IMG/VR virus record: IMGVR_UViG_3300032194_000093
Location: 1-43,037 of that record
Origin: a virus
Length of the DNA stretch: 43,037 nt
Strand: one strand, 5' to 3'
In this document: in pieces, positions 10,850 through 40,803 of the stretch
How the letters are laid out: the number at the start of each line of letters is the position of its first letter
How positions within the stretch are numbered: the stretch's first letter is position 1
Position numbers and translations under genes: made by a program
The notes under the pieces: generated by a model
The model's database searches: none
Told to the model about the DNA's origin: nothing
What the model saw: the letters and a program-made list of their open reading frames with translations, nothing else

Positions 10850-13800
10850 TTAGGATAGGGCGAGGATGAAGGGGGTTACTGTAACAAAGAGTGATCTTTG
10901 GAACGAGTCTCCAGATAACGTACCAGTGTTCTGGTTGATCTGTAGACCTTGACCAATACGGAAGTTACCTAGTTGGTCTGTACTGGTAAAGGCGACTTTA
11001 CCGCCGTTAAGTTCAACAACTTCATTTGCTTGGATGGGAACACCACCTCTAGCAGGGATAGCTTCTTGAATCTTAGTTCCGGCACCCACATATTCCATAC
11101 AATGTGAGTTAGCGATGATTCTAGTCTGCTGGAAGAAGAAGACTTCATCACCATCATTCAGGTCAAAGGCAATATTTTCATCAGTAGTGATTGTAGTCTT
11201 GCCATTAACAGGATCAGGTATCTCTCCGGTAACAATACTGTAATACTGAGGATACATCTCTGGTTCTACTGTTGCTGTAACAGTAGGAGAACCACCAACC
11301 AATACAATATTTGGAGGATTAATAAACTGAGAACCAGAGGAGATAAGAGTAATCGAAGTTACGACACCATTAGTTAAGTTAGCGATAGCCTGAGCAGGAA
11401 TACCACTAGGACCAGTTGGGTCATCAATTACAACAGATGGAGGAGAGGCATAACCACTGCCACCATTGGTTATATTTATCTCTTCAATAAAGAAGTAAGG
11501 GTTGCCATTATTACCAATCGTGATGCCCTGACCAATATATGGCTTCTTCGGGCAATCTCTTAGATTGATAGTAGAACCTGGATTCTGATTGCCATCAACG
11601 AATGCTGTATATTGTAGTGGCGATACACCATCAGCAACTAGTCCGAAGTTACCAAAGTCAGTGTTAGAGTTCGTGATAGAGCAAGTAGAACCAGCAGTTA
11701 GATATACAGCACGGTTACAGCAGATCTCGAAGATAGACACTAACTGAGTATATCCACCGTTAACAATCGTAATACCGTCGCCACCTTGGTTATACTGGGT
11801 ATAAGAGTCAAGAACGAACGAGGCAGTTCCCTCGGCAAGGTTTCCGTCTACAATTAAACCACTACCAGTAGTAGTTAGAGAAGTACAGTTCTGTACATAT
11901 GGAGATCTGGTAATGTTACCAGCGTTACCAATGTAGTAGTCGAAGTTGAGTTCGATATTGTTAAAGTCTAGTTCGTTGGCGGTTGATAAAGTGATGACCT
12001 TATCTTGAATGCTAATAATGACAGCAGCAGTTGCCACACCGCCAGTTAGAGATCCTTCTGGAATGTTCTTAACAGTGACATACATTCTAGGTTTGAGACC
12101 TTGTGTAGCAGATCCTGGTTTGCCAGGTAGATCATCTAGAGTAATCTGGTATGATCCCTTGATACCGGTTCCTGTTCTAGTGAAGGTTTCTCCAATCTTT
12201 GTCTTGGGGAACGAGCAGGTGTAGGATGGGAATAGGTGTCCGGAGAATGTAACGTTAGTGATGTATCCACCGTTCTCACAGTAGATTAGATTCTGTGTAG
12301 GATCACTTGGGTAGATGCTAACATCACGGAGGTTATCACCAAAGATACCTGTGTTTGGAGGTAGAACAATAGGAGTCTGCTCTGTATATACACCAGACTT
12401 GACAAATACAGTTGTCTTGAAGGATGGTAACTGAACCTGTACAGAATCCTTACCACCTTCTAGTAACATGAACTCGATGATATTCCAGTAATTGTCGATA
12501 GCAGCATCAACATCAGTACAATATGGATACTCGAAGTCTCTAATGACTTCATTGTCGAAGTATAATGGTTCTAGACTATACTTTGGTTCGTATAAATCAT
12601 TGGAAGGACTTATAAGCCACTGATTAGATGCCTTCTTCATGATGTCCCTGGCAAATCTATAAGCAAGGATTGATTGCTCTAGTTCACCATCAATGTAGAT
12701 AAGTCTTCCGTTGTCGTTATCGAAGTAGAAGTTAGCAATATCAGTAGTATTGACATTACCACCAACCTTAAGGTCTGTAGCAATACCTACAACAACATAT
12801 CCCGTATCACGGAAGCAGAGAGATTCAGTCTTCTTCCATCCCTTTCTACCATAGTTTTCGGTAACTGTGTTGAGATGCTCTAGAGTTCCATCTGTTATAA
12901 CTTTCTCTAAGATAGCAAATAAGTTATCAACAGCAAATTGTACATCAATACATACCTTCTCGGATCCAGACTTCGTGTAATCTCTTGGTTCAAAACTTAA
13001 ACCATATTCTTCGGGACCACGGAATAGTTCTAGATCCTTGGCAAATAATTGATTAGTGAGTGCTTTCTTGATATATCTAGCAGCAGCTTTATAAGCAGTA
13101 ATAGATTCTGCCTCTTCTCCAACAATACCATTGGCGAGAGCATCTCCGTTATTGTCGAAGTATCCTCTAGCAACTTTAATAATGTTGACATTGCTGTTGG
13201 CATAGAGATCTTCAGCAATAGCTCTTACAACATACGAGATATCTCTACGACACTTAGTTTCATTGATAGATGGTTCACCATTGTCAACTGTAATACCATC
13301 CAAGAATGTTTCTGGTTGGGCATTTTGTAAAGTATCTGTAACGATAGTAACCAAAGAAGCAATCTCATTCTGAACATCAATACATTTGTTGGGATAGACA
13401 TTACCATCATCAGTGATAGTAAGATCTCTCTTATAAAGAACATTCTGAATGGCATCCTGCATCACTACGATTGCTTGACCGAGAGCAGATACTGTCTGGG
13501 GAACCTCTCCGGAAATCTGTGGAATTAGGATATCAGATCCAGTAACAATGTAAGTTCTTGCTGCTGAAATAATACTAGTGTTACTTCTGTTCTTGAGATC
13601 AGTCATGACAGCATCAACGATGAGTCCTAGATCTCTACGGCAAATCTTACCACCAGGAGTATCGGCAGAATCTGTGTCAAGGAAGATGCCCTCGTTCAAA
13701 GGAGGTACATTTTCATTAGTTCCAGTCAAGAAAGCATCAGAAGAGATTGCCGTTAAGTTGTCGATAGTAGTTCTAACATCAGCACAAGATCTAGGATCAG

Positions 13801-16800
13801 TGTTGCTCTGTGTTGCTGGATCAGGAGTGACAGTTAGATCCTTGACATATCCTGTTAGATCTGCTGTAACATATACAGAACCAGAAGTAACAGCAGTGCT
13901 GATGTCAAGAGAATCTTGGTTTGTGATCGCTGCTTTCATTAACTCAGAAGCAACTCTAAATGTAAATACAGATTCAGATTCTTCTCCGAGTACCCCATCG
14001 GTGATTGGATTACCCTCTTCATCAAAGTAGAAGTTGGTGAAGTATCTGATATATCTGTTACCTCTTGTGAATACATCAAGAGAGATAGCGTCAATGAAAT
14101 ATCCTAAGTCGCGCTTACACTTAGTTTCTACAGCAAGAAAATCAAATGCGCTGTACAGTGGATTTAGAGTGGCAGCAGTGAAGGCATCATCAACAATAGA
14201 TGCCTTGTTTTGCTGAATGAGACGATAAGAATCAGCATACCTGCTGTTCTCTGTAGTTACCTCATCACCATTAAAGTTGAAGTCTGGGAAATCAATAGCG
14301 ATCTGAGCAAGAGATTTGTCTAGAATTTCATTCTTATTGAGACCAATCAATCCAGCAGCATCATCAAAACGATCTTGCTGATATTGTGTCTCGACAGGTA
14401 GAGAACTTAGATTGCCACCAGCAATAACATCAGTGACAATAGTAGTCAGTGAAGCGATAGAGTTCTGAACATCAATACAAGCAGCAGCATTACCAGATTC
14501 AAGTACAGGTTCATCGGGGTTGCCATCGCCGTATACTGGTTCACCTGGAGAGATAGTTAAGTCTTTTTCGAATAACTGGTTCGTTACCGCTTTCTGCATC
14601 ATATCTCTTGCCATATTGAAGGCAGTGATAGACTCTGCTTCCTCTCCTAAAAGACCAGTATATAGAGGTACATCAGGAGAGATAAAATAGTTTTGGGCAA
14701 GTTTACGTGTATATCTGTTACCAGCACCTAGGAAGATATCAAGAGAAATAGCATCAATAAAGAATCCAATATCTCTACCACACTTAGACTCATTGAATAG
14801 AGGGTTGCCGTAGTTGACATCAATAGCATTGATGTTTGTTAGTGCTAATGCTGGATCAGTAATTGCTGTATTGATGGCATCAGAAGTAATACCAACCAAA
14901 GTTTGGATAGTTGCTCTTACAGCAGCACAGGAAGCAGGATCTTTGTTATCTCCTGTAGCAGGGTCTGCTAAGATCGATAGATCTTGTCTGAACAACTGGT
15001 TAGTTACCGCTAACTCCATAGCATTAGCAGCGGCATTGAAAGCAGTAACAGATTCTGCCTCTTCTCCAATGTCACTATAGACACCACCTGGGAAGTATCC
15101 TAAAGCATTAGCAATAGACTTGACATTTGCTTCATTGTAAAGATCATCTACAACAGCATCGATTACATATCCTAAGTCACGCTTACACTTGTCCATACCG
15201 GCATTATAGTCGCCGTTATTGACATAAGGGAGAAGATCGATATCATCAGAAGCAAATACATCGATAACAATCGTTGCTAGGTTATCGATAGTAGTCTGTA
15301 CATCAGAACAAGCACTAACATCTGTTCTAGATACATCTGGTTCTCCACTGCCAAATTCGGCAGGACCTTCTACAACGGTGAGATCAGTAAATGCTAATTG
15401 GTTAGCAACTGCTAACTTCATAAGCTCGGCAGCTCTATTCCAAGCAAACTGAGATGCTAGTTGTTCTTCATCGTCTAGTTGTGGAAGTCTAATTCCGAAT
15501 TCATCAAAATGGAATAGAGTAAAGTCTCTGGTATATCTGTTTCCTCTAGTAAATACGTCTAACGATACGGCATCAGTGAAGTATGAAATATCTCTACGAC
15601 ACTTAGCTTCTACAGCAGCAAGATTAGCAACTACACCAGCTCCAGCATGGAAGTTAGGGAACAATGCTGGATTAGCAGTCACATAAGCAGCAGTGCCATT
15701 GTATGTCTCATCATCAATGTCATTCTTATTCTGTTGAATCAAACGATAACCGTCATAGTAACGATAGTTTTCTTGGTTACTAGCAGGATCGCCAGGAAAC
15801 ACAAAATCGGGATGGTCGATAGCAATCTGTGCTAATCCTCTATCAGCGATCTCATTCTTATTGGCAAATACCAAGTTAGAAGCATCTTGGTATGTTCCTT
15901 GGGGAACATTAAACTCATCTGGGATGACAGCGAAACCACTGTTAGCAAGAGCAATCTCAGCATTGAGTACATCAACAACTGCTGTTACTAGTGTATTAAT
16001 TGTGCTCCTAACATCAGCACAAGCAGTGGGATCTGTATTAGGAACATCACCGCCAGGATTATTAGGATCGTATGTAGGATTACCAATAAGGACTGTTAAA
16101 TCTCTGTATAGAGTTAGTCCTCTGTCGAATGCTTCACCGGCAGTGTTGGTTCCATCATCTAATGTATAAGATCTAGTTGTTGGGAGAGTAACAGATAACT
16201 GATTAGTAATTACTGCTTCCATGATCGCTTCTACATTCTGGAAAGCAACAATAGAAGCAGCTTCTTCTCCCTCTAATCCATTTAGAATAAACTCATTCGA
16301 GTCGTTGTAATAACCTAAAAGAAACTTTCTGGTATATGTGTTAGCACCACCCAAGAACATATCTAGAGAGATGGAATCAACAAAGAATCCAATATCACGC
16401 TTACATTGTTCTGGAGTTCCTACTGTAGCAAGACCCTCTAGAATCATATCGTCGTATGCTAACTCAACGATTAGAGTTCTGTTCTGTTGGACCAAACGAT
16501 AAGCATCTTTATATCTGGAATACTCGGTCTCTACAGGATCACCAGGATAAGAGAAATCTTCATGCTGATTAGCAATTTCGGCAAGAGATCTATCTACAAT
16601 CTCTCTACGGTTTTGTTGGATGAGACGATAAGAATCTCTATATCTGGAGAATCTATCTTCCTGGTTAGATCCTGGGAAGAAGAAGTCGGGATGCTCAATA
16701 GCAATCTCGGCAAGTGCTCTGTCCTGAATCTCTTCCATGTTGGAGAAGATTAGGTTTCTGGCATCCTTCCATCTGCCAGATTCAGCAGGAGAGTCGGGGA

Positions 16801-18388
16801 ATACGAAACGATTGTTGCTAGTTCTGGTGATACCGTCTAAGTTACCGGGGGTAGCATCACTACCGATTGCTTGTAGATAGATTAGTGTTAGACTCCAAAT
16901 AGCAGAAGCAACGTCAGTACAACCATATCCATACTGGGTAGCAGGATCCGGAGGAGTTGCAACTGTAGTTACAGTTCCTGGACTGCCATCGATGCCAATA
17001 CCTTCTGCTAAAATACTTTGGAAAGCAGCTAGAGCAGATTCAACTTCTACACAGTCGGCGGGGGCCCCATCTGCTAGTGTATATGGATCGGTAATTTGAT
17101 CTAATCCGGTAGTATCGAATCCTAGATTACCAGTCTCATCATCAGCAGCAGTCTGTAATAAAGAAAACTCTCTGTTGTTGATTACTTCGATAGAAATATC
17201 ACGAACCTTTTCAAATACAAATAAGGTCTCTGTTCTATTCTGAGGATCAATAACGTCCTGCTCATATAATGTAGCCGCCTCTACTACCTTATCATTTCCA
17301 CCATGCTGTAAATTGTAGATAATAGTATCTAATACATCAAGTACATCATCTATACAATCTTCTTTTGTTCCTGGAGCTACTGGGGAAAAAGATCCACCGG
17401 CAAAAAATGTAAGTTCGTTATATGCTTTCTTAGCAATATATTCTTTATTGATTTGAATAAGCCTAGCAGACTCAGCAAACGCGTTCTTTCTTTCGTATGT
17501 GTCACCTGCTAATCCGAGAGGATCTAAAACGATAGTATTATCAAATACTGGAGTGAGACCATGAGCACCAACTAGATTAGGTGGTTCTGCTCCAGCAATA
17601 GCAATATCAGGATCTTGTCTCATCACCTGCATCATTGTGTAGGCAACTTGCTGATATACATTGATGGAGTCGTCTCTCTCGCCATCAATCAGATCGCCGT
17701 ATTCTGGTCTTGTATATACTTCAGCGAAATCATATACTTTCTGGTTGCCGTCATACTTGACATTGAATGCTACGGCATCGATGAATAGTTTTACATCATC
17801 AATACATCCCTCACGCCCATCACCAGGAGGCACGAAAGGAGAAATTTGTTGTGCTCTATCGTATCCTTCTTCGGCAATAAAATCTTTGTTGGCAATGATG
17901 GTGTCATAGGCATCAATCCATCTGTTGCCTCTGGCATAATCCTTGTACTCAGTTAAAAGTTCTCCAACTACTTCATCCTGAATAAGTTTCTTGTTTAGTA
18001 GAATATTGTTAGCACCATCACACAACTTACCGAAGTATCCTCTTTGTGCTGTTCTTAGTGCTGCTCCGATAGATGCCTTTGCTGTCTCTTGACTTAAACC
18101 ATCATTTGTATCGTCTCCGTCTTTGGATACAAATAATACGTTCTCAATCGTAAGAGATTTCCAAAGAAGTTTTCCTTCTTTATTAACTTTAAGAAACTGT
18201 CCGTCTTCACCAGTGCTACCAGTAGAATCAATAATAGCGCCAGGTTGAATACTACCATCAATTAATAATCGATCAATAGATTCTTGACCAGTAGAAATGT
18301 CAAATAGATCCTGTGCTACCTCATTAATCTTTACCCTTTGATCCTCAAAGGTATCTGTTCTAAAAACTTCCTTACGATTAATTGCCAT
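10850..18388 (-). CDS. Giant virion protein with paired-cysteine repeats and beta-helix-like C-terminus, 2512 aa
   Basis: Residues 1-100 are a globular head (MAINRKEVFRTDTFEDQRVK). From about 195 to 1990 runs a long repeat array: a first half starting C-[KR]-R-D-[IL]-G-[YF]-[FV]-[IV]-DA-[IV]-S-LD, then RGNRYTR and GEEAESITAF with a helix ending in TNQL, and a second half with [AS]-C-x-DV-x-x-x-I-x-x-L. A helical motif LI-x-x-NK-x-x-I-x-D is interspersed. Residues about 1990-2290 (TVFVKSGVYTEQTPIVLPPN, then GIFGDN) resemble the pectate-lyase-like right-handed beta-helix of phage spikes. A GSGY motif follows at about 2311, and the C-terminus (about 2460-2512) resembles other cyanophage fibre-like proteins. 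No catalytic residues were identified. The start overlaps the 68-residue gene by 11 nt. A baseplate-associated adhesin is the best guess. Confidence 0.82.
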   Translation of the reverse strand: MAINRKEVFRTDTFEDQRVKINEVAQDLFDISTGQESIDRLLIDGSIQPGAIIDSTGSTGEDGQFLKVNKEGKLLWKSLTIENVLFVSKDGDDTNDGLSQETAKASIGAALRTAQRGYFGKLCDGANNILLNKKLIQDEVVGELLTEYKDYARGNRWIDAYDTIIANKDFIAEEGYDRAQQISPFVPPGDGREGCIDDVKLFIDAVAFNVKYDGNQKVYDFAEVYTRPEYGDLIDGERDDSINVYQQVAYTMMQVMRQDPDIAIAGAEPPNLVGAHGLTPVFDNTIVLDPLGLAGDTYERKNAFAESARLIQINKEYIAKKAYNELTFFAGGSFSPVAPGTKEDCIDDVLDVLDTIIYNLQHGGNDKVVEAATLYEQDVIDPQNRTETLFVFEKVRDISIEVINNREFSLLQTAADDETGNLGFDTTGLDQITDPYTLADGAPADCVEVESALAAFQSILAEGIGIDGSPGTVTTVATPPDPATQYGYGCTDVASAIWSLTLIYLQAIGSDATPGNLDGITRTSNNRFVFPDSPAESGRWKDARNLIFSNMEEIQDRALAEIAIEHPDFFFPGSNQEDRFSRYRDSYRLIQQNRREIVDRSLAEIANQHEDFSYPGDPVETEYSRYKDAYRLVQQNRTLIVELAYDDMILEGLATVGTPEQCKRDIGFFVDSISLDMFLGGANTYTRKFLLGYYNDSNEFILNGLEGEEAASIVAFQNVEAIMEAVITNQLSVTLPTTRSYTLDDGTNTAGEAFDRGLTLYRDLTVLIGNPTYDPNNPGGDVPNTDPTACADVRSTINTLVTAVVDVLNAEIALANSGFAVIPDEFNVPQGTYQDASNLVFANKNEIADRGLAQIAIDHPDFVFPGDPASNQENYRYYDGYRLIQQNKNDIDDETYNGTAAYVTANPALFPNFHAGAGVVANLAAVEAKCRRDISYFTDAVSLDVFTRGNRYTRDFTLFHFDEFGIRLPQLDDEEQLASQFAWNRAAELMKLAVANQLAFTDLTVVEGPAEFGSGEPDVSRTDVSACSDVQTTIDNLATIVIDVFASDDIDLLPYVNNGDYNAGMDKCKRDLGYVIDAVVDDLYNEANVKSIANALGYFPGGVYSDIGEEAESVTAFNAAANAMELAVTNQLFRQDLSILADPATGDNKDPASCAAVRATIQTLVGITSDAINTAITDPALALTNINAIDVNYGNPLFNESKCGRDIGFFIDAISLDIFLGAGNRYTRKLAQNYFISPDVPLYTGLLGEEAESITAFNMARDMMQKAVTNQLFEKDLTISPGEPVYGDGNPDEPVLESGNAAACIDVQNSIASLTTIVTDVIAGGNLSSLPVETQYQQDRFDDAAGLIGLNKNEILDKSLAQIAIDFPDFNFNGDEVTTENSRYADSYRLIQQNKASIVDDAFTAATLNPLYSAFDFLAVETKCKRDLGYFIDAISLDVFTRGNRYIRYFTNFYFDEEGNPITDGVLGEESESVFTFRVASELMKAAITNQDSLDISTAVTSGSVYVTADLTGYVKDLTVTPDPATQSNTDPRSCADVRTTIDNLTAISSDAFLTGTNENVPPLNEGIFLDTDSADTPGGKICRRDLGLIVDAVMTDLKNRSNTSIISAARTYIVTGSDILIPQISGEVPQTVSALGQAIVVMQDAIQNVLYKRDLTITDDGNVYPNKCIDVQNEIASLVTIVTDTLQNAQPETFLDGITVDNGEPSINETKCRRDISYVVRAIAEDLYANSNVNIIKVARGYFDNNGDALANGIVGEEAESITAYKAAARYIKKALTNQLFAKDLELFRGPEEYGLSFEPRDYTKSGSEKVCIDVQFAVDNLFAILEKVITDGTLEHLNTVTENYGRKGWKKTESLCFRDTGYVVVGIATDLKVGGNVNTTDIANFYFDNDNGRLIYIDGELEQSILAYRFARDIMKKASNQWLISPSNDLYEPKYSLEPLYFDNEVIRDFEYPYCTDVDAAIDNYWNIIEFMLLEGGKDSVQVQLPSFKTTVFVKSGVYTEQTPIVLPPNTGIFGDNLRDVSIYPSDPTQNLIYCENGGYITNVTFSGHLFPSYTCSFPKTKIGETFTRTGTGIKGSYQITLDDLPGKPGSATQGLKPRMYVTVKNIPEGSLTGGVATAAVIISIQDKVITLSTANELDFNNIELNFDYYIGNAGNITRSPYVQNCTSLTTTGSGLIVDGNLAEGTASFVLDSYTQYNQGGDGITIVNGGYTQLVSIFEICCNRAVYLTAGSTCSITNSNTDFGNFGLVADGVSPLQYTAFVDGNQNPGSTINLRDCPKKPYIGQGITIGNNGNPYFFIEEINITNGGSGYASPPSVVIDDPTGPSGIPAQAIANLTNGVVTSITLISSGSQFINPPNIVLVGGSPTVTATVEPEMYPQYYSIVTGEIPDPVNGKTTITTDENIAFDLNDGDEVFFFQQTRIIANSHCMEYVGAGTKIQEAIPARGGVPIQANEVVELNGGKVAFTSTDQLGNFRIGQGLQINQNTGTLSGDSFQRSLFVTVTPFILALS
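12419..17806 (-). repeat. Protein repeat array with alternating conserved cysteines
   Basis: First-half cysteines are at residues 195, 345, 662, 930, 1068, 1203, 1424, 1583, 1713 and 1858. Second-half cysteines are at 446, 490, 790, 1027, 1154, 1304, 1535, 1669, 1813 and 1957. From residue 662 on the two kinds alternate strictly, 86-128 residues apart within each pair. The first two units are more divergent (CIDDV in place of CKRD). Confidence 0.85.
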
Positions 18389-28815: not shown

Positions 28816-31800
28816 TTACCCGATAGTTCTTACGTAAGATGTAGCAGAAGCATGAGTCTGAACCGTAGTTCCATTGACGCCTCTGGTGATTCCAATAAGA
28901 GTTGTTCCGGACAATCCAGTGTACTCAATTTCTTCAATGATATGGTTAGCAGGATCAGGATCTGATGTATCACCAATCAAGATTCTACCAGAAGTTGGCC
29001 AATCTAAATCAGTCAAGTTTACAGTAGAATTGATAGTGACAGCAATAGTTTCGGTATTTAACAGATCAACACCAAGAGTACCACCTATTTCATTAATAGA
29101 TGGGAAACCAAGATTGAACGTTGATCCATTAGGTCTAATGCTAGACTCTCCTCGTTCAAACTCTTGAATCTCATAGGAACCTAAAGTTTCGAATAGGTTA
29201 GCGTTAATATTTAACGAACCATTGGAGAGGAAAACATTTCTCTCGTATTGAGCAAAGCTTCCTCCTAAGGTAGTTTGTAAGTAACCACCCGATGCTAGAT
29301 CACCCTCATTTAGATAATCAACAATACCAGTCGAAATTTCAAGTTTTGTTTCTTGAGTCTCACCTTCGACTACAGCAGCACTGGCGAGATCAGATACTAC
29401 ATCAATCTCTACCTCTGTATCAGAAGATACAAGTGCTAAGTCTTCTGTTGGTCTAATGTCAACTGGGGCGATAGCACCGGCACCAAATGGTCTGACGATT
29501 TCCTGGAAGACATTGACATCAACCTGGGCAGTTCTGATAATGTTACGAACAATGTTGGTGGAAATATCTTGTGGTTCGAAGGCAACAACTTCGATGAACG
29601 AAACAAAGACTGGGGGAGTCTCATTAGGATCATCAGGGATGCTGTCAAGGTTGGTGACAATGCTAAGCATTCCAACATCACCATATAGTGTTCCGCCTTC
29701 TGTAGGTTCACCGATAGTTCTAACGATTTCGGTCTTGCTTCCGAATTCAGTAAATGGCGTGATTTCAATAGTCTTATCGATGAAGATCTGTAGAGAAATG
29801 TCCTGAATAAGAACTTCTCTAGGAATAATAAGCTGTTGATCAGGATCTTCGGGATCAGCACCAGGAACAGTCTCTGTAAAGAATACTTCGAATGGGAATG
29901 CCGCCGTTGGCATGTTGTATTCGGCATAGAATCCTTGACCGTTAGGTACACCGAGGGAATCCAAGTGACTATTGGGATAATCTCTTTCGATCTGTTTCTC
30001 AATGCTGAGAGAAGTTTGATCATGCTCAATCTGGAAGATTCTCTCGTTGTTCTGAACAACGCCAAGTTCATCACCCTGGAATGGGGTAGCAAGGAAGAGT
30101 GCCTCACCAGAGATATCTCTTGGGAACTCACCGCTTCTTTCTTGAGCACCACCGGACCATAGACGTACAAACTTAGGAACATCATTTGCTTCGACTGGTG
30201 TTCCATCGCCATATGCTCTAACATCACTTCCGTTGAGGAAAGAGGTGACTGGAGTTTCTGGATCAAAGGCAATAAAGAGTTCCTGACCATTAATCTTGGA
30301 TCCACCTATGAGAATCTCAGCAACAATACTCTTAATTGTTTCACTGAACTGGAACTGGAAGATACGCTCATCATTATGTACAAGGTTAATATTATCACCT
30401 ACAAATGGGGTATCTAACGTTAGTATCTGACCATTTTCGCCTATAGCAGTCTGTCCTCTGTATTCAGCACCACCAGACCACAGAGGAACTTCATAAGTTC
30501 TCTCAAATGTAACTGTGGATGGATCTACAGCAGGAGAAACGACTTGAAGTTGAGATACAACAGCATCATCGATTTCAACAATTTCAGGACCAATAAGTTC
30601 AGTAACAATACCATTGAGAAGAACCTTCTCGAATGGATTAATAGTTAGAGTGATAAACGAATCTACAACCTCAACAGAATCAAATTCAGCTTCATAATCA
30701 ACAGGAAGAATTTTGTCATAGAAGAATTCGGCACTTAAATCTGTCTGGAAGTGCTGAATCTGGAAAATACGTGTATCGTTGTGTACAACTGCTAAAGGAT
30801 CAAACGTAGCGGTGACTGTAATCTCAACAGGTTTAATCTTGTCGTAGGAGAAGATTACATCCAACATACGAACTTCATCATCTAGATTAATTCCAGTGAC
30901 GGAAGTAGAACCTAAGGCAATATCTACAATAGAAGTATCAGGTGTTACAACTTGTAACTGGGATACAACAGCATCATCGATCTCAATTACTTCAGGTCCG
31001 ATAAGTTCAGTAACAATACCATTGAGAAGAACCTTCTCAACTGGATTAATAATTAGTTTGACAAAACTCTCTACCTCCTTCATGTCGGATAGAGATAGAG
31101 CACTCTCAGACTTAGTGATGTACTCGGAACTTAAGTTGATATCTACAACAGAAGTATCTTCAAACTCTCTTACAATCTGTAACTGAGATACAACAGCATC
31201 ATCAATTTCGACAACCTCAGGACCGATTAGTTCAGTAAGAATACCATTGATAAGAACCTTCTCGAATGGATTGATAATAGATGTTATGAACGATTCTACA
31301 TTTTTAACATCAACAGGTGGAGTCTCAATTTCTAGAGGATAGAATTTAAAGAGTTCATACTCAAAACTAATCTGAGCAGATAATGGAGAATCTACGAATG
31401 CTGTAACCTGTAAGAACTCAGTGATCTGTGTCTGAGAAATACTTAGATTCTGAGATTCTATTGGGAGCTGTAAAGTAGATACAATACCCTGGTTGTAAGA
31501 AGCTGCTAAGGATCCTTCTGGGTAGAAACTACTCTGTGGAAGGTCAAACTGACCTACAATTTCATTTTCAAATACAGCGATTGTCTGTACAGGAACAATA
31601 GCACCAGGAACAACGATAATACCACCAGACTGGAATTCAACACTAATGTCTTCAATACCTAAGAATACAACACTATCGAAGTCATCAATGATTTGAACAG
31701 TGACAACAGAGTCTAAAGATCTTAGGGCAAGATCATCTGCCTCATACTGGTTCTGGACCTGCTTACTAATAGGAGTGAAGTTTTCTTCGATGACTGGCAT

Positions 31801-34800
31801 CGAAACATCACCGAAGGCAGAAGCACTAAATCCATCAAATAGTTCTGGTGGCTGAATAATCGTCTCGATATCAGCATCACGAACATTGAGAAGAGCAGGT
31901 TCTAGTCTGGCAAATGATCCAGCAAAGTGATCTGCTTCAAAGGTGCTACCAACACCAGATCGAGGTGGATCCGCTACGCCCCTATCTACAATAAAGAAAC
32001 GATCTTCAGTTCTTCTATCATAAATTACTCTTTCATAATCAATAATAAGCTGTCCTTCATCTGGGAAGTGAGAAGCACTGTTTACGTAAAGGATAGTATC
32101 GCCAATCAAGAAGTCGGCATCAAGTCTAGCGACCTGATTTGAATCAACAGGAACAGGACTCAAGAAGAATTTATCTGTTGCTACCTGCTGATAGAATAGA
32201 GTAATTTCACTTCTTTCGATGAAAGGATCATCTAATACAGCGAAATTGACAGTCTGAGTGATTGTCTTAATAACAATCTCTTCCTTGGACAGAGCATTGA
32301 AGAATACTTCTGTAGGATCAAACTCAGTGATTCCGGCGTTGATTTGAAGATCAACCTCAACCACAGAAACATCGGATTCGATTTGGATGATAACAGTAAT
32401 TTCATCACTGATATCCTGGAACTCAGGTGCCGATACATTAACAATAGTAGCCTCGATAAGTGCCTGAGAACCTTCGTTGAGGATAAAGATACTATCAATC
32501 TTGGTAAGAGATGGTTGAATCTTTAAATCATTAAACCTTGCTAGAGATACAGTATTGATATATCTGTTTGGATTTCTGTAAACCTCATATCGTTTTGCTA
32601 CCACAACTTGTGGAGGCACTTCATATCCATATCCAGGTTCTAGTAAGTTAACACTTACAATACCTCCAAACCAAGTAACAGATGCTCTAGCACCACCACC
32701 AGCAGGAGTTTGTGGAATGAAGTATAGTTGGGGTGCATCTACGTATCCTTTGGCATACGTTGTCCTTCTGGTGTATTCTTCATTCCATTCTGGTTGATTC
32801 CAGAGTAATTCTGTAACTCTACCCTCAGCATCGATATTAGCAAATATACCAAGACCTTGACCGTTTTGTGGTCCGTTGTAAGCAGAAGTACGTAGTTTTA
32901 CAAAATGATCCTTAGTGACATTTTTACCAACATTTTGCTGAGTCGTAAAACCTTTTCTGTCAATTTCTAATACTTCTCTAAATTTATTTTCACCGGAAAT
33001 TCTAATCTTATCTTGCGGATGTAAATTTTCAAAGAGTTTTGTTCTCTCATAATAACACTTGTCATCATTAGTCCCATCCAACCAGTTAGTGACAAATCTA
33101 CTAACAGAAGTAAGACCATCATTGTTTGTTTCTTCTACAAGAGTATTAGTATAATCGAGACCTCTAATAACATAAGTTTTGGTGTCAATACGACCTATCT
33201 TCTTGATTAATAAAACTTTGTTTTCGAGAAAATCATTATAGTATTGTATATTTGAAGTAATACGGAGAGAAACAGATCCATCAATACCTTGTTTGAAGTC
33301 CTTTATTCGACCTAAAGCAACCTCGGTATCCGGAACAGCAGCATCATATTGTTTGTATTCGAAATCTGCCTGAATAATAATAGGTGATGTACCATTTCCA
33401 TCATAACCACTAAATCCAACAGTAGAAAGCTGTTGTCCGTCTTGTACTCTTTCACCTATATTAAGTCTACCAAATTTAAATTCAACCTGACCCAAGTCTA
33501 AGATCTTAATGTAATCAGCTCTAACATCATAGGCATAAGATCCTTCTGGTCCAACATTTAGGTTAATTAGTCCTGTTGAAATACCATTAGCAGTATTAGA
33601 ATACTCAATGACACCAGACCCCGTTGGTGCTTCTGGGAAAATAATTAAATCAACAAAAGCATCAGGTTCGCCTGGTGTTCCGATATTTTCTTGACGAATA
33701 AATTCAGAACCACCGGTATGTTGGAATACCAATGTCTGATTGAACATAGTGGGGTTAGATACATTGAAACGATAAGTGTTTCCTGGTACAAGGTCTAACG
33801 TCGGCATCAATACCGTATCAATTAATAAATCACCACTTCCATCCTGTCCTACTACGAAAGACTGTGTTGGAATATTGTAGAATGGAATATTACCATATTC
33901 TCTGTCTACTGTGAAGTTTGTTCCTCCATCAACTAATACGTATTGAGCACTCTTTAAGTAAGTTAATCTTTGGTCAATATCTGCTCTGTCGGCAACATAC
34001 AGGGCGCTAATATATTCTGGATATAGTTCAGTATCATAATACCAGTTTAAAGCTTCATCACCATATACAGTACCAGTTATGTTGACATCGAAATCTCTCT
34101 TATACGTATCAGTTTCAAAATTGTGTATTGTATAAAACTGATCCGTAGTCTTACCATAAACGTAGATAATCTCTACCGAATATGATTCGATAGTACCATC
34201 TTCTTGCTCAACGAATGGAATATCTTGTCTAAACGTGATTAAAGGACCAGTGATATTGTACGATTTTCTTGGAATCTGTAACACATTGTTGACAAAAACT
34301 AAAGCATAATCGGGATCTGGTACACTAACAACAGTGCCATCGACACTATTAACAATAGGGAATGGACCTCTTGGTTTTGTTTTTACGTTATCAGTTTCAA
34401 TAGTACCAGAGAAGTAGTTGCCAATACTATAAATGTAACATTTTTGTCCAAGTCGTAATACACGATCTTCTCTTGGATCCTCGGAATCATATAGAGGATC
34501 TTCTACTTCTGGTCTTTCTAAGAAAACAATCTTATCGGGTGTAGAAGGATCCTCATATCTTGTAATTATATAAGATTGTCCATAGCGTTGCTTAACACCA
34601 TCAACAACAACAATTAGTAGTTCGTTATCTTCTGTCTTGGCAATAGATCCATCATCATAGTATAGATCAAAATCACTAGTGATGCTATCAAATTGATCAC
34701 TAATATCTTGGAACTTTCTTAGATATTGAGTATTAAGAGCATCATCAATATATTTCAGATGTTTTCCGTAGAACTTCTGTGCTTCTACAATCTGACCTTC

Positions 34801-37800
34801 AGCAACGCGTTCTCCTAAAGGAGCAGTAGCAAATTCGATTTGATTTCCAGAAACAATATATGCTTCTCCTGGTTCTTGTACAATACCATCGAGAGTTACA
34901 AAAATTTGTTGTTCGTTGAAAACATCAAGAATGAGATTTGAATTTTTCTCAAACATTGTGAATGTTGTAGTTCCTATTCTCTTTCCGGTATCAGGATCAA
35001 TAGTCCCATCAAACTCAGGTACTAGTCTAATGTCCTGGAAGTTAGTTTGGGATAGATCAACATCAGAAACACTAATAGCACCACTACCTCTTATTACATT
35101 AAAGTCTTGGAAAGTAGCAACTTGCTGAGTAATAACTCTAGATGTATTAATAGTATCAACAGCTTGAAGTGTTACACCAAGTTGCTGATAAGTTTCTATT
35201 GGTTTTTGACTTGGTGCTGGCATTGGAGTTTCGCCAACACTGGAAATATTAACTTCACCGAATAACTGGAATCCAGCAGGATGAGTTGTTTCTAGGATTA
35301 AATCCCTCCATGTCTCAATAGGTGTTTCTGATTCTACAACATAAGAATAATCTTGATAGAAGAAAGAATCTTGAATTCTGTTATTACTATCGTTGATCTT
35401 ACCTTTGTTAGAGGCAAAGTAACCATTTTGTGAGTAAGATCTAATGTCTTCATCAAAGTCTGTTGTTAGAACGTGTTTAACAGTAGCACTACTACCACCT
35501 AGACCTACAACATTTTGACCTGCTTTAAACTCCCCTTCGAGATTGAAGAGTTTTAATAGGTTAGATCCTTTCTTCCAGAAATTAATATCTACATTTGCCG
35601 TGGCATTTGTAGATGGTTGTGTTACTACATTCCCTGGAGTAAACAAATCAGCATCTTCTAATACCAATACAGTTTTACTCTTAAAGATAGGAGTGGTGGA
35701 ATAATCGTTAGTAAATCCAAATCCGTTGTATGTAATTTCTACATCCCTAGGAATACCAATATTAGTAGACTCTAGATAGATCGTATTATCTGTCTCAACA
35801 ACAGAAGCAGTTGTATCTTCTGTATATCCAGAACCTTGCTTAGATACTCTAACTCCGGAAATTACTCCGTTAACTACAACAAGACCAAGTTCAGCACCTG
35901 TTCCTGGTCCAGATAACACTAAATTTGGTTTTGAGTAACTAGATCCACCACTTAAGACTTTAACCTCTACAATTTTACCATTGGAAACAACTGGTTCTAA
36001 AACAGCTTTGTTTCTGGTTGCCGGGAAGACACCAAATACAATAGGAACAGATTCTAGAGATGTTTGACTGTTACGAATGCTAATTTCTTGAATTACACCA
36101 GTTGTACTATTTGATGTGGTGGTATACTCGATAATACCCGAACCGTCATACTCCACAGGATTATCGAGATCATAAACAAACTTAGTATCTGTAATGTGGG
36201 TAACTCGCTTTCTTCCTGTTAATGGATCAGGAATAATGCTTAATCTAGCTTGCTCGGTATCTACACCGGATGCTTTAATGAAATAATAGAAAGTGGAATA
36301 CCTTACATCTACTTTCTCTTGTGTTGTTCCAAAAATATCAGGAGTAAATCCAAACTTAACTGATACAAAAGATCCTGGGGATCCTGGAGCAACAGAACTA
36401 ATCTCCTTTCCATCTACTAAGATGTTATAGTTGATACTAGGAGAAATATCCAAGAAAGTATCAGTCATGGAAAAATGACTGGTATCAAACTTGTAACTAT
36501 AGAACCTTACAATATCAAGCGAGGGGTTAACAACAAAGTTATCCTGATTATCTTTTGATAACTCTAACTTATTTGCTGCTGGTTGTGTATTAGTAAGAGA
36601 TACTACTTTTCTTGGTACACTTTGATCAAAAAATACACTAGAGTCTGATAATTCATTGATGAAGTTAATATCATCACCATACGAGTAAGAAACATTAATT
36701 TCTCTAGTTTCTTCGTTATAAGTGTTAATTACTGGTTGTAAGGCATTGTTGTCGAATGGATAATATCCAGCAGAAAGTCTGTATGGAATATATTCACCTA
36801 CTACAATATTTCCTTCGTAATGGTTTACGGCACTAGTTCCTTGTTGTGCTCTATTTACTGTTACGAACTTATTAGCTAGGTTTACTCCTTCAATCTCAAC
36901 AATTTCATCTCCAATCTTTAAACGGTCTCCATTTGATAGGTTGTTTAGATTAGAAAGGAATAGTTGTCTGTTTTCTGCTGCAAAACCAACATGATCAACG
37001 GTGAAAGCAAACTTCTGTGTATTTGTTGGGGTGACATCTGGAATAGGATCTCCTTGGATAATAGTAAGAATATCTTCTTTTCTATATCCAGATCCCTTAG
37101 ATGTAATAAGAACTTGTGATACAGGACCGAATCCAACCCCATTAGGATTACCTACGACAATAGTCGCTCTAGCGTTACCAGGATCGCCTGGAAGACCCAC
37201 TCCGGGTCTTGCTTGGGTTTGGTCACGGAATACTAGTTCAACGTCGTTGTAGGTCCCTGAGACGTAGGATAGACCAGTGCCAATGACATCTCCACTACCA
37301 ATACCAGTATCAGTAATGAGAGATTTATGCTCTAGTGTTCTAGCAGTGGTCTCTTGATAAATTTTCTTTCTTACGAAGTAAGTTGTTTCGGTAACAAAGT
37401 CATTTGGTGTAATATCAACTTCTACAAAATCACCAACAGACATGTCATGATTTTCGTTTGTTTCTACAATAGCAATATCTTCGTTAGAAGAGAATAGTTC
37501 TATGTTCTTACTCAAATCAATGATAGAAATCAATGTAGATCTAGAAGTATCAGAAAGAGTGTTACTTCTTAAGAAATATTGATCTCCTACCTCAAACGTA
37601 CCGCTGGAAACCCTTACTATGACTGAGTTTTGGGCGCTAGTAGATTCTAAGACAGTTCCTTCGGCAACTACTTGCTGTAAATCACCATCAACTAGTTGTA
37701 CAGTAGTTCCTAATGTATATGTTGAGGATTCATCTAAAATAAACCTTTGAACGACAATAGAAGCGTTTAAAAGATCTTGATCATTAAAAATAGGATCTTC

Positions 37801-40800
37801 GGGAGAAGCATTGATATCTTTGATAACTTGTCTTAAGACAAAGTTATTAGTATTGAATGCATCAGTTACAATTTCACCAAAACTTCCATTACCTTGTACA
37901 ACAGTATCGCCAGCAAATAGATAAACAGTTTCTTTTGTTGTGATCTCTACTGCTTTTGTTTGTTCTGATTCGATACCAACTACAGTTTTTCCTTTGAGGG
38001 AAGATACAAAAGCATCTACGCTATTGTTTTGAACTAGTAGCGTAGATCCAACTTCAAACGTATCAGGAGATGAAATGACAGAAGCAGAAGTTACAGATCC
38101 GGATGTTACTGTTTTTACTCTTGCTTTAAGTTCGGTGCCGGAAGATAAGAATCCAGGAGACTTTAATCTTTTTATATCTCTTGGTAAATCTTTTTGAGTA
38201 ATAGGAGTATTGTAATTAGAATCTACTGGTAGAGAATAGAAGTTAGATCCTACGACATATGGAAATACTGGATCGTTGTTAGCGTCAATAGTTAAGAAGT
38301 AAGCATAAACCCCTTGTGGATAATCAGGAGTTACACAAAATCTGCCATTATTAGCATCTAGTTCTGTTTTTTCACTATCAACAGATGGTTTCCACTCATA
38401 ATCATCTACAAATGTACCAATCGGGTTGGTAATGGTAGATGGTCCATTGACTCTTGTGGTTTTTAACTGATAACCTGATTTTAACCTCTCGATAGGACTG
38501 GCAGGATTTAATGGGTTGCTATGCCCATAAGGACCGTAAATAGGGTTTCCATCATAAGCATATCCTAAAATAGGAGAGTGCTCAAAGGGGAAAGTCTCTT
38601 CATAAACAGCATTAATACTATCAAGTAGTCTTCTTCTTAAAATAACTGGGTTAGCAACTACACCGTACCCATATCCTACCTTACCTGATCTAGATTTAAA
38701 AGTATATCCGTTGTTAGTATCTAAAACAGTTTCGAGTAACTTATACCTGTCTTTGACCCATCTTCTTACTTTTGCTTTTACTACAGCACCAGTGCCTACC
38801 GGTACAGCAACAACTGATGTAAGTCTGGAATCATATAACTTACCGCCGTTGATCTTGATAACTTCAGTAATCTGACCATTAGATACGTTAGCTTGATATT
38901 CAGCAAACCCACCTCTACCTGTCACATCGGTGATAACAATGGCGGGAGGAGAAGTATAATATCTTCCTGGTTCATCAACTCTAATACTAGTAATGACACC
39001 ATCAGTGACAATAGCGGATAATCTCGCTCCTTCTCCTGAAGTTATTCTTACTTCAGGATCTTCTTCATAAATCTCGGGAATTGTAATCTCAACACTAGAA
39101 AGAGTTTCTCCAGATAAAACTGCTCTTGCTTTGTTTGGTTCTTCGTTGATCAATACTGTAGGTGGTAGAGCATAGTTTCTTCCCTTGTTAAGAACTTGGA
39201 AAGACTCAATATTACCATAAACTACTTCTTCTTCAGATCTAATGCCATAGACAGGAGAACCATCTACTAGAATACCTACATCTTTGTTTCCTGTGCTATA
39301 AACTTCAGTTGTTGTAATAGGTTGCTTTCTGATAAGTTTTAGCAACTCTTGATCTTCTAGTGGGACGTTAACGTCAATCGTTAACAGATCACTATTAGAA
39401 GGGAAAGAAGAGGTACAGATATAATAGTATTGCTCATCTTCAAATACAGCACTGATATCAGCAACAACACTATCCAAGGTGATGTTGGGGTGAATACTAT
39501 TAGGCTCGGTGAAATTGGAATTCAACAACCATCTAATATTGTTTTCTGGAGTTTTGATAACAGGGGAAAATGTATCAAATCCATCTCTGGATACTTGAAT
39601 CTGATCTCCAGTGGAGGCATATGGTTGTGGGTTTCTAGGAACTAAGTTGTAAACTACACCAGAAACTAAAAATGTTACTGTACTACCATCCGATGTCGTA
39701 GATGTTACTAGATCACCGGAAAATATCGAAGTACCTACAGGATAGTTGGTATTTGTTTGATCTCTGCTAAAAAGTGAAAATTGATTTACATTTTTGGATC
39801 TATACTCAAGTTTTGTGTTACCAATGTACAAAGTTCCTTGAGGATCAAATCCTTGAGTAGAAAATACAGAAATCTTGTAACCATTTCCATATGATGCTAA
39901 TAAGTCTTCTTTTTCTAATCTAGTCCTGTTTGCAACAGAAAACTCTCCAATAATAGTCTCGGGTGCTAGAATAATGTCAGTACCTACTACGTTATCAACA
40001 ACAGCACTGTTAAACCCTTGCTCAATTCTTTCTCCAATAAGTTTCTTAGGATCTCCAGATAACACATTGATTTTTAATGTGTAAGTAGAAATCCAGTCAG
40101 AAGTAGATGCCTTGTAAGTATTATCTTTTGGATTATATACACTAACCTTCTCTTCTGGGTTAGAAGATACAATCGTCTTAAAAAGGAACTGAATAGATCT
40201 ATCAGTTCCTTTTGCTCTGTAGAAATCTCCAATATTCTTAATTAGAGTTCTTTTGTCTACTTCGCCTTTTAAAAATTTCTCGGGAAATGATTCTAGATAT
40301 TCAACTTCGAAATTTCTTACAAAAGCATATAAAAATAGATTACTGATGTTTAGAACATCTTCTCCGGTTGAATGAGGAGATGCTTCTGTAGAAACAAACT
40401 CACTCTTGTTATAAAGATCACCAAGGGTGTTATTGCCGCTAACTCCTCTTGATACCTCTAAAAATTGAGTATCTGTTCTCTCTTTGTAAAACAGAATTTC
40501 ATCATTGATCCTGATATATCCGTTTCTATCAGGAAAAGACGTAGCATCATTTACTGTAATGGTAGTATCACTAGCTAATACTGCCGAAGATAACGTTGTC
40601 TTTTCCTTGAGGATATTTTTGTTGTAAAAATCAATATTACGATATTGTGTAATATTGCTAATAATATCTAATGGCTGTCCACGAAGTTCCTGCTGTTCAT
40701 AGTAAGACTCTATGAACGTCTTCATCATTCCATAATCTTCAATAATAAACCCAGGTAACTGGCTTTCGATTAATGTAGAAATATTTCTTGTCTTAGCGGC

Positions 40801-40803
40801 CAT
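28816..40803 (-). CDS. 7: Giant gp7-like baseplate wedge protein, 3995 aa
   Basis: The position between gp6 and gp8 matches T4 gp7. Residues about 24-265 resemble the C-terminal region of T4 gp7: FIESYYEQ (30-37), IGDFYRAKGTDRSIQFLFK (191-209; T4 FYSTKGIEASYKFLFK) and LIGERIEQGFNSAVVDNV (255-272). T4 gp7 is 1032 residues, so this is about four times longer. Added parts include an RG-type module (77-122, and again near 1291, 2900 and 3938), several GSGY modules, a YHYH-type domain near 741-900 (YAYDGNPIYGPYG, then GVYAYF), a cupredoxin-like segment near 2330-2420, and a late repeat region at about 3170-3600. Few cysteines occur. It starts 6 nt after gp6. It probably forms the wedge arm plus an extended outer apparatus. 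The gp7 assignment rests on synteny plus a limited motif match. Confidence 0.85.
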   Translation of the reverse strand: MAAKTRNISTLIESQLPGFIIEDYGMMKTFIESYYEQQELRGQPLDIISNITQYRNIDFYNKNILKEKTTLSSAVLASDTTITVNDATSFPDRNGYIRINDEILFYKERTDTQFLEVSRGVSGNNTLGDLYNKSEFVSTEASPHSTGEDVLNISNLFLYAFVRNFEVEYLESFPEKFLKGEVDKRTLIKNIGDFYRAKGTDRSIQFLFKTIVSSNPEEKVSVYNPKDNTYKASTSDWISTYTLKINVLSGDPKKLIGERIEQGFNSAVVDNVVGTDIILAPETIIGEFSVANRTRLEKEDLLASYGNGYKISVFSTQGFDPQGTLYIGNTKLEYRSKNVNQFSLFSRDQTNTNYPVGTSIFSGDLVTSTTSDGSTVTFLVSGVVYNLVPRNPQPYASTGDQIQVSRDGFDTFSPVIKTPENNIRWLLNSNFTEPNSIHPNITLDSVVADISAVFEDEQYYYICTSSFPSNSDLLTIDVNVPLEDQELLKLIRKQPITTTEVYSTGNKDVGILVDGSPVYGIRSEEEVVYGNIESFQVLNKGRNYALPPTVLINEEPNKARAVLSGETLSSVEITIPEIYEEDPEVRITSGEGARLSAIVTDGVITSIRVDEPGRYYTSPPAIVITDVTGRGGFAEYQANVSNGQITEVIKINGGKLYDSRLTSVVAVPVGTGAVVKAKVRRWVKDRYKLLETVLDTNNGYTFKSRSGKVGYGYGVVANPVILRRRLLDSINAVYEETFPFEHSPILGYAYDGNPIYGPYGHSNPLNPASPIERLKSGYQLKTTRVNGPSTITNPIGTFVDDYEWKPSVDSEKTELDANNGRFCVTPDYPQGVYAYFLTIDANNDPVFPYVVGSNFYSLPVDSNYNTPITQKDLPRDIKRLKSPGFLSSGTELKARVKTVTSGSVTSASVISSPDTFEVGSTLLVQNNSVDAFVSSLKGKTVVGIESEQTKAVEITTKETVYLFAGDTVVQGNGSFGEIVTDAFNTNNFVLRQVIKDINASPEDPIFNDQDLLNASIVVQRFILDESSTYTLGTTVQLVDGDLQQVVAEGTVLESTSAQNSVIVRVSSGTFEVGDQYFLRSNTLSDTSRSTLISIIDLSKNIELFSSNEDIAIVETNENHDMSVGDFVEVDITPNDFVTETTYFVRKKIYQETTARTLEHKSLITDTGIGSGDVIGTGLSYVSGTYNDVELVFRDQTQARPGVGLPGDPGNARATIVVGNPNGVGFGPVSQVLITSKGSGYRKEDILTIIQGDPIPDVTPTNTQKFAFTVDHVGFAAENRQLFLSNLNNLSNGDRLKIGDEIVEIEGVNLANKFVTVNRAQQGTSAVNHYEGNIVVGEYIPYRLSAGYYPFDNNALQPVINTYNEETREINVSYSYGDDINFINELSDSSVFFDQSVPRKVVSLTNTQPAANKLELSKDNQDNFVVNPSLDIVRFYSYKFDTSHFSMTDTFLDISPSINYNILVDGKEISSVAPGSPGSFVSVKFGFTPDIFGTTQEKVDVRYSTFYYFIKASGVDTEQARLSIIPDPLTGRKRVTHITDTKFVYDLDNPVEYDGSGIIEYTTTSNSTTGVIQEISIRNSQTSLESVPIVFGVFPATRNKAVLEPVVSNGKIVEVKVLSGGSSYSKPNLVLSGPGTGAELGLVVVNGVISGVRVSKQGSGYTEDTTASVVETDNTIYLESTNIGIPRDVEITYNGFGFTNDYSTTPIFKSKTVLVLEDADLFTPGNVVTQPSTNATANVDINFWKKGSNLLKLFNLEGEFKAGQNVVGLGGSSATVKHVLTTDFDEDIRSYSQNGYFASNKGKINDSNNRIQDSFFYQDYSYVVESETPIETWRDLILETTHPAGFQLFGEVNISSVGETPMPAPSQKPIETYQQLGVTLQAVDTINTSRVITQQVATFQDFNVIRGSGAISVSDVDLSQTNFQDIRLVPEFDGTIDPDTGKRIGTTTFTMFEKNSNLILDVFNEQQIFVTLDGIVQEPGEAYIVSGNQIEFATAPLGERVAEGQIVEAQKFYGKHLKYIDDALNTQYLRKFQDISDQFDSITSDFDLYYDDGSIAKTEDNELLIVVVDGVKQRYGQSYIITRYEDPSTPDKIVFLERPEVEDPLYDSEDPREDRVLRLGQKCYIYSIGNYFSGTIETDNVKTKPRGPFPIVNSVDGTVVSVPDPDYALVFVNNVLQIPRKSYNITGPLITFRQDIPFVEQEDGTIESYSVEIIYVYGKTTDQFYTIHNFETDTYKRDFDVNITGTVYGDEALNWYYDTELYPEYISALYVADRADIDQRLTYLKSAQYVLVDGGTNFTVDREYGNIPFYNIPTQSFVVGQDGSGDLLIDTVLMPTLDLVPGNTYRFNVSNPTMFNQTLVFQHTGGSEFIRQENIGTPGEPDAFVDLIIFPEAPTGSGVIEYSNTANGISTGLINLNVGPEGSYAYDVRADYIKILDLGQVEFKFGRLNIGERVQDGQQLSTVGFSGYDGNGTSPIIIQADFEYKQYDAAVPDTEVALGRIKDFKQGIDGSVSLRITSNIQYYNDFLENKVLLIKKIGRIDTKTYVIRGLDYTNTLVEETNNDGLTSVSRFVTNWLDGTNDDKCYYERTKLFENLHPQDKIRISGENKFREVLEIDRKGFTTQQNVGKNVTKDHFVKLRTSAYNGPQNGQGLGIFANIDAEGRVTELLWNQPEWNEEYTRRTTYAKGYVDAPQLYFIPQTPAGGGARASVTWFGGIVSVNLLEPGYGYEVPPQVVVAKRYEVYRNPNRYINTVSLARFNDLKIQPSLTKIDSIFILNEGSQALIEATIVNVSAPEFQDISDEITVIIQIESDVSVVEVDLQINAGITEFDPTEVFFNALSKEEIVIKTITQTVNFAVLDDPFIERSEITLFYQQVATDKFFLSPVPVDSNQVARLDADFLIGDTILYVNSASHFPDEGQLIIDYERVIYDRRTEDRFFIVDRGVADPPRSGVGSTFEADHFAGSFARLEPALLNVRDADIETIIQPPELFDGFSASAFGDVSMPVIEENFTPISKQVQNQYEADDLALRSLDSVVTVQIIDDFDSVVFLGIEDISVEFQSGGIIVVPGAIVPVQTIAVFENEIVGQFDLPQSSFYPEGSLAASYNQGIVSTLQLPIESQNLSISQTQITEFLQVTAFVDSPLSAQISFEYELFKFYPLEIETPPVDVKNVESFITSIINPFEKVLINGILTELIGPEVVEIDDAVVSQLQIVREFEDTSVVDINLSSEYITKSESALSLSDMKEVESFVKLIINPVEKVLLNGIVTELIGPEVIEIDDAVVSQLQVVTPDTSIVDIALGSTSVTGINLDDEVRMLDVIFSYDKIKPVEITVTATFDPLAVVHNDTRIFQIQHFQTDLSAEFFYDKILPVDYEAEFDSVEVVDSFITLTINPFEKVLLNGIVTELIGPEIVEIDDAVVSQLQVVSPAVDPSTVTFERTYEVPLWSGGAEYRGQTAIGENGQILTLDTPFVGDNINLVHNDERIFQFQFSETIKSIVAEILIGGSKINGQELFIAFDPETPVTSFLNGSDVRAYGDGTPVEANDVPKFVRLWSGGAQERSGEFPRDISGEALFLATPFQGDELGVVQNNERIFQIEHDQTSLSIEKQIERDYPNSHLDSLGVPNGQGFYAEYNMPTAAFPFEVFFTETVPGADPEDPDQQLIIPREVLIQDISLQIFIDKTIEITPFTEFGSKTEIVRTIGEPTEGGTLYGDVGMLSIVTNLDSIPDDPNETPPVFVSFIEVVAFEPQDISTNIVRNIIRTAQVDVNVFQEIVRPFGAGAIAPVDIRPTEDLALVSSDTEVEIDVVSDLASAAVVEGETQETKLEISTGIVDYLNEGDLASGGYLQTTLGGSFAQYERNVFLSNGSLNINANLFETLGSYEIQEFERGESSIRPNGSTFNLGFPSINEIGGTLGVDLLNTETIAVTINSTVNLTDLDWPTSGRILIGDTSDPDPANHIIEEIEYTGLSGTTLIGITRGVNGTTVQTHASATSYVRTIG
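30543..31290 (-). repeat. Three recent internal repeats in the gp7-like gene
   Basis: Three copies (about 31175-31290, 30955-31070, 30543-30660) encode F-[IV]-x-x-x-INP-[FV]-EKVL-[IL]-NGI-[LV]-TELIGPE followed by IDDAVVSQLQ. The order on the transcript is INPFEKVLINGILTELIGPE, then INPVEKVLLNGIVTELIGPE, then INPFEKVLLNGIVTELIGPE. DNA is also closely similar, for example gatacaacagcatcatcgat in two copies, suggesting recent duplication. Related LWSGGA (twice) and N-[ED]-x-RIFQ (three times) motifs surround them. Confidence 0.85.

Follow-up and report, generated by a model that had tools for sequence, protein, structure and literature searches.

A two-cysteine repeat of cyanophage virion proteins with local likeness to the bilin attachment site of phycocyanin

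The bilin of phycobiliproteins, an open-chain tetrapyrrole, is held by Cys84, Arg86 and Asp87, and the counterparts of these in the viral repeat described here are its first cysteine (C1), R(+2) and Asp(+3). The CpeT protein of cyanophage P-HM1 reportedly binds phycoerythrobilin tightly and is said to give no transfer to the host beta subunit tested, a behaviour that would fit a different substrate. Lyases of the CpcT/CpeT type act on beta subunits, where Cys153 is their site (PMC2246261, PMC10452541). Cysteines are also employed in the tail of phage Milano, which has an extensive disulfide network that includes the receptor-binding proteins (PMC10811340).

The DNA analysed here, referred to as the window, is a stretch of 43,037 nucleotides from the IMG/VR virus record IMGVR_UViG_3300032194_000093. 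Its minus strand carries, in order, gp25, gp6, a gene for a 3995-aa protein at the position of gp7, gp8, and genes for a 2690-aa DUF4815 protein and the 2512-aa protein that is the subject of this work, followed by those for proteins of 112 aa and 1401 aa, the latter a collagen-like fibre, and for four more of 991, 521, 295 and 270 aa. The gp6 protein shares 59-60% identity with gp6 of S-PM2 and other Synechococcus phages, and S-PM2 has a similar gene order (gp8, then a 'virulence associated' protein of great length, structural proteins, a repeat protein of 10 kb and, after it, neck genes). Thus, the window comes from a T4-type cyanophage, and the record is probably an incomplete genome. The 3995-aa protein (28816-40803) has 4 Cys and no repeat units, and the giant protein of the gp7 region bears the repeat in several related cyanophages (P-HM1, S-ShM2, Syn19 and P-RSM6). 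It also contains, at 38761-38994, a 36% identical copy of a 76-residue C-terminal module of the 2512-aa protein (residues 2301-2376). At the edge of the tail cluster, the 270-aa protein (2-811) has only two phage relatives, in DSL-LC02 (beta-mannosyltransferase) and S-SCSM2R (MGP protein), and is possibly a glycosyltransferase encoded beside the fibre genes.

The 2512-aa ORF contains 29 Cys (1.15%), compared with 13 Cys in 11,412 aa for 10 other proteins of the virion region (Fisher 5e-13). The preliminary description of this DNA, made from the sequence alone, had reported cysteine-poor neighbours, and indeed the collagen-like 1401-aa protein and the 521-, 295- and 112-aa proteins have no Cys and the DUF4815 protein has 2. 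The region it singled out, 12419-17806, corresponds to residues 195-1990 of the one ORF. Two types of cysteine, both at the start of a helix, recur along the protein (Table 1). The first type, C1, is found in the context K-C-[KR]-R-D-[IL]-G-[YF], in a helix that ends 18-20 residues after its start, typically at G-G-N, and the second type, C2, in the context S-C-A-x-V-x-x-x-I-x-x-L. A repeat opens with the C1 helix and its last helix is the one starting at C2. C1 and C2 are 86-128 residues apart, and 41-49 residues separate C2 from the C1 that follows, rising to 120-140 where extra helices are inserted. Ten cysteines of each type, strictly alternating from residue 662, had been described. Ten of each are present in total, though reaching this number requires residues 195, 345, 446 and 490, which follow one another in the non-alternating order C1, C1, C2, C2, and the alternation itself involves eight of each, an arrangement with a chance of 1.6e-4. 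Of the motifs given at that time, C-[KR]-R-D is exact at 6 of the 10 C1 positions (C-x-R-D at 8) and C-x-D-V at 8 of the 10 C2 positions. The array exceeds chance, and its cysteines are kept across hundreds of homologous units.

Table 1 Features of the 2512-aa protein, with positions in the window.
Feature	Positions	Strand	Remarks
2512-aa repeat-bearing virion protein, tail fibre type	10850..18388	-	PHROG 4527, 5342, 701, 17885; relatives annotated as tail fibre / baseplate
Unit 1	17519..17806	-	C1-type Cys195, CIDD variant; without C2
Unit 2	16847..17356	-	Cys345, CIDD variant; two C2-type Cys, 446 and 490
Unit 3	15947..16405	-	Cys662 (C1) and Cys790 (C2)
Unit 4	15236..15601	-	Cys930 and Cys1027
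Unit 5	14855..15187	-	Cys1068 and Cys1154; modelled by AlphaFold2 jointly with the C2 helix before it (pLDDT 87.8)
Unit 6	14405..14782	-	Cys1203 and Cys1304
Unit 7	13712..14119	-	Cys1424 and Cys1535
Unit 8	13310..13642	-	Cys1583 and Cys1669
Unit 9	12878..13252	-	Cys1713 and Cys1813
Unit 10	12446..12817	-	Cys1858 and Cys1957
C-terminal non-repeat part, residues 2000-2512	10853..12391	-	PHROG 17885 tail fibre match, residues 2157-2511

Profile matches to PHROG 4527 and 5342 (E 0 and 3e-151), together with the neighbourhood of tail genes, place the 2512-aa protein in a tail-fibre/structural family of T4-type cyanophages. The preliminary description knew of no named family for the repeat, which holds in part: Pfam was found to have no family that covers it, but it is contained in PHROG 4527, 5342 and 701. 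A Pfam match of the 2512-aa protein to DUF1415 was under the cut-off, and weak matches of its relatives to K-cyclin, SYF1, DUF7917 and Harpin were set aside as unrelated helical noise. The literature found on its homologues neither names nor characterises the repeat. When other phages were searched, relatives were found widely among cyanophages. Relatives of the whole protein were present by tblastn in 312 phage records, for the most part from phages of Synechococcus and Prochlorococcus, with all identities below 60%, and a single unit retrieved 96 records, every one of them a cyanophage or a marine virus. Named isolates reach about 35-39% identity over the protein at best, with a varying number of units. 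A pattern-based search of bacterial and archaeal genomes gave no relatives of the unit, and no host copy or prophage was seen.

Genomes of the named phages carry the repeat in a single giant ORF or in more than one, of about 3000-4800 aa for the fibre type and about 4400-8600 aa for the gp7 region. Direct homologues with the repeat include S-PM2p091 (T4-GC 830) and Syn19_088 (T4-GC 969), and an ORF of 6180 aa bears it in S-SM1. As T4-GC 969, the cluster of the Syn19 repeat protein, was detected by proteomics in purified S-SM1 virions (PMC3037559), the homologues are virion proteins.

Conservation of the cysteines was determined with a profile in which both Cys columns were masked, by searching 122 loci and removing units more than 80% identical. 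C1 was Cys in 287 of 288 nonredundant units and C2 in 244 of 264, so that the cysteines are kept in homologues, and the masking excludes that this is an artefact of the model. In the motif C-x-R-D, which is that of bilin sites, Cys and Asp(+3) are each kept in 99.7% of the nonredundant units, and R(+2) is found in 67-79% of units (79% of nonredundant ones) and replaced, often by Asp, in 20-30%. Named-phage units retrieved without a Cys-containing pattern gave 99% for C1, 99% for Asp(+3) and 84% for C2. The repeat family and its Cys conservation are beyond doubt, and cysteines so extraordinarily conserved in homologues have a function. A third Cys, in helix 3 (alignment column 64, A-R-D-L-C-K), is present in 30 of 328 nonredundant units and has no conserved partner.

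In the preliminary description the two cysteines were assigned to an intra-repeat disulfide or to a metal site. An intra-repeat disulfide, or a metal site made of two Cys, requires both residues, yet the units covering both positions comprise 213 with both, 16 with C1 only, 1 with neither and 0 with C2 only, and hence the cysteines are not kept or lost together as in an obligatory intra-repeat disulfide. In a few of these 16 units a C2 follows later, after an insertion, or helix 3 holds another Cys, and several are without any second Cys. C1 is therefore independent of C2, which speaks for separate functions of the two and against a C1-C2 bond being obligatory. Disulfides of a less strict kind, joining C1 and C2 of the same or neighbouring repeats or formed between chains, with inter-chain C1-C1 bonds as one possible form, would arise after lysis in oxygenated water and stiffen a loose helical fibre. 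They are the main rival to the bilin site proposed below and appear somewhat unlikely. The strong conservation of C1 and C2, the location of each at a helix start, the equal numbers of the two in many arrays and the precedent of Milano are all as disulfides would have it, but the 16 C1-only units are without C2 and no unit loses C1 alone, and C1 outnumbers C2 in several proteins (6:2 in L109, 5:1 in L112, 5:2 in L115). As for metal, C1, Asp(+3) and C2, or residues of neighbouring repeats, would have to bind an ion such as zinc. The Cys together with the invariant Asp at +3 might provide two ligands, but the most conserved columns include no conserved His, C2 is dispensable and no match to metal-binding families was obtained, so that metal sites are highly improbable.

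A third option, that of a bilin attachment site, had been missed, and it is the one to which profile searches point. With a profile of three repeats, the first 27 matches in the PDB were phycocyanin alpha (E 0.006-0.2), and with a profile of 117 segments searched against 177,635 PDB sequences the top 25 were again phycocyanin alpha (E 0.005-0.1), the next family being triosephosphate isomerase (E 0.096). The match extends over about 38 residues centred on the chromophore Cys84, the repeat side reading ssLpaenegsfsageskCkRDigyivdavakDlflg. Comparison of the repeat with CpcA by hhalign gave a probability of 92.8-93.7% (P 2-4e-7) and a score of 47, whereas 60 column shuffles reached 16.4 at the highest and the reversed profile 14.3. 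The K-C-x-R-D match could have been an artefact of the search pattern; this was excluded, as named-phage units retrieved without the CxRD pattern gave the same result (91.5%, P 8e-7).

Beyond these residues the likeness is not significant. The regions before and after the motif, tested separately against phycobiliproteins, scored no better than shuffled columns, extension of the likeness to other helices was tested and found unsupported, and the helices found ahead of the bilin helix in phycobiliproteins are absent from the repeat or substituted by others. C2 aligns to beta-Cys153, the second bilin Cys of beta subunits where the last helix starts, in the best local (forced) alignment, with a score not above that of shuffles. 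No match to PF00502 was found in the 2512-aa protein or in the six frames of the window record, and the weak ones in 20 of 52 related segments (best E 2e-4) were accompanied by equally weak matches to unrelated families. The whole 2512-aa protein had no match in a sequence search of the PDB. A confident AlphaFold2 model spanning one and a half units (Table 1; pTM 0.72), compared with the PDB by Foldseek, matched phycocyanin beta (5ook_B) with a TM-score of 0.42, a probability of 0.20 and an E of 6.5, which, like every other match, is not significant. This was the best TM-score and probability among the matches listed, the others having a query-normalised TM of 0.29 or less, and the support that it lends to the likeness is suggestive only. 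A three-unit model (pLDDT 75.7, pTM 0.54) gave no useful fold match in Foldseek, and the significant matches in a viral structure library were structural and fibre proteins of cyanophages, confirming the family only. Since the likeness is confined to about 38 residues and the evidence for the globin-like fold of a full phycobiliprotein domain is weak, the repeat is not filed as a phycobiliprotein, and what is claimed is that C1 may work like a bilin site.

The same observations leave room for a purely structural role, in which Cys and Asp cap helices or pack the core, the likeness to phycocyanin is convergent or reflects descent without pigment, and the cpeT gene considered next serves host phycobiliproteins only. 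The local extent of the similarity and the non-significant fold match fit such a role, but packing rarely fixes Cys at 99.7% across units that are 30-40% identical, where Ser or Ala would be expected, and we consider it doubtful.

The repeat and the bilin-lyase gene cpeT were found to occur together. The 16 cyanophages of PMC3037559 comprise 13 with both and 3 with neither (P-SSM2, S-SM2 and S-SSM7), and 0 are discordant (P 0.0018; as the genomes are not independent, co-occurrence P values are only guides). In this test cpeT was scored over the Pfam cut-off, 11 of the 16 genomes were picked before their state was known, and two of the cpeT calls, in S-ShM2 and P-SSM7, are weak. Extension to 30 named genomes gave 26 with both, 3 with neither and 1 (B23) with the repeat and without cpeT, so that cpeT is present in 26 of 27 repeat-bearing genomes and in 0 of 3 that lack the repeat. 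In a tree of gp17, S-SCSM2R, a phage with both, falls into one group with the three negative phages, as the sister of P-SSM2 (moderate support); thus at least two joint changes are needed. IMG/VR contigs with terminase or gp6 were left out of this comparison, nearly all of them being too short to judge absence. No cpeT was found in the 43-kb window, the genome of which is incomplete.

The two genes are also close to each other. In all 7 named genomes with a long cpeT that were examined closely, this gene is upstream of a repeat ORF, at distances of 60 bp (AG-345-P14), 705 bp (Syn1), 953 bp (S-RSM4), 1064 bp (S-CAM1), 1286 bp (S-WAM2), 1448 bp (S-PM2) and 2018 bp (S-MbCM7). A cpeT lies within a few kb of repeat matches in S-CAM3, S-CAM4, ACG-2014e/i/j, Sf-CH11, Sf-FP1, S-RIM32, S-RIM44, S-H9-1 and S-H9-2 as well, and four IMG/VR records agree. 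Short divergent cpeT genes are not beside repeat ORFs. Inheritance of gene order may account for part of the adjacency, which would suit a structural role of the cysteines, but such a role leaves the 13/0/0/3 co-occurrence together with the adjacency unexplained. Disulfides likewise leave unexplained the link to cpeT, the phycocyanin match and the invariant Asp(+3).

Some further features were seen in the genomes compared. P-SSM4 (NC_006884), which a review describes as being without cpeT, has a divergent one at 16642-17064 that was found by profile. S-SCSM2R carries a gene for NblA (phycobilisome degradation) at 17659-17826, between neck and terminase genes. The gene for the terminase large subunit of B23 (MN695335, 152177-154801) is a frame of 900 aa matched in two parts with a gap between them, which hints at an in-frame insertion, for instance an intein, and that of S-ShM2 (NC_015281, 108576-110220) matches two frames that overlap, as a split or a frameshift would produce.

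The reading that we favour, with a probability of about 0.4, is that a bilin is covalently bound to C1, which works in the manner of a phycobiliprotein site. The array, a series of some ten helical repeats in a fibre protein of a T4-type cyanophage virion, would then offer in every repeat, at C1, a covalent attachment site like Cys84 of phycocyanin, and C2 would perhaps be a second one, like Cys153/155 of beta subunits. Inside the cell, the phage lyase CpeT and lyases of the host would attach a bilin that is drawn from the host or made with phage pebS, after which the pigmented fibre would be assembled into the virion. A broader and more tentative proposal is that most T4-type cyanophage virions have many CpeT-loaded covalent bilins in fibre or baseplate repeats, the pigment acting in the particle, for example as a light sensor or a sunscreen. 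No report of a pigmented virion was found in the literature, and to our knowledge no coloured virion has been described.

Light-dependent adsorption is a process in which the pigment of the fibre might serve as the direct light sensor. S-PM2, said to be among the cyanomyoviruses that adsorb in this manner, and P-HM2 each carry the repeat and cpeT. Light-dependent adsorption is reported for several cyanomyoviruses and for AS-1, with Jia 2010 cited for it. P-HM2 shows no adsorption in the dark, and the podovirus P-SSP7 is able to infect without light (PMC7112961). The literature found offers no established mechanism for light-dependent cyanophage adsorption, and the same data may be explained by host effects. 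We infer the covalent bilin, CpeT as its loader and any role in adsorption from the evidence above. If C1 does hold a bilin, the virion would be pigmented, phage cpeT and bilin-synthesis genes such as pebS would gain a direct substrate in the particle of the phage itself rather than in the antenna of its host, and light-dependent adsorption of cyanophages would gain a physical basis. Even without pigment, the two-Cys repeat stands as an unnamed module that is widespread in virion proteins, among them some of the largest of viruses from the ocean and from lakes.

Comparison with the known systems shows what is shared and what differs. Milano and the phage of the window both have cysteine chemistry in tail parts of the virion, though the cysteines of Milano, an Agrobacterium phage, are spread over many tail proteins and those described here are concentrated in a single protein, the rest of the set being poor in Cys. 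For the T-type bilin lyases, CpcT and phage CpeT, two structures (PDB 4o4o; 5hi8, 'antenna protein') are both matched by the cpeT product of S-RSM4; the lyase is the proposed partner, separate from the repeat protein, on which it would act. Phycobiliproteins (PF00502; Cys84 site of CpcA) have in common with the repeat the sequence K-C-x-R-D-I-G-Y at a helix start and G-G at +18/+19, while the repeat is a tandem array in a virion protein, for which the bilin is proposed from sequence. A universal C1 and an optional C2 in the repeat parallel the alpha and beta subunits of phycobiliproteins.
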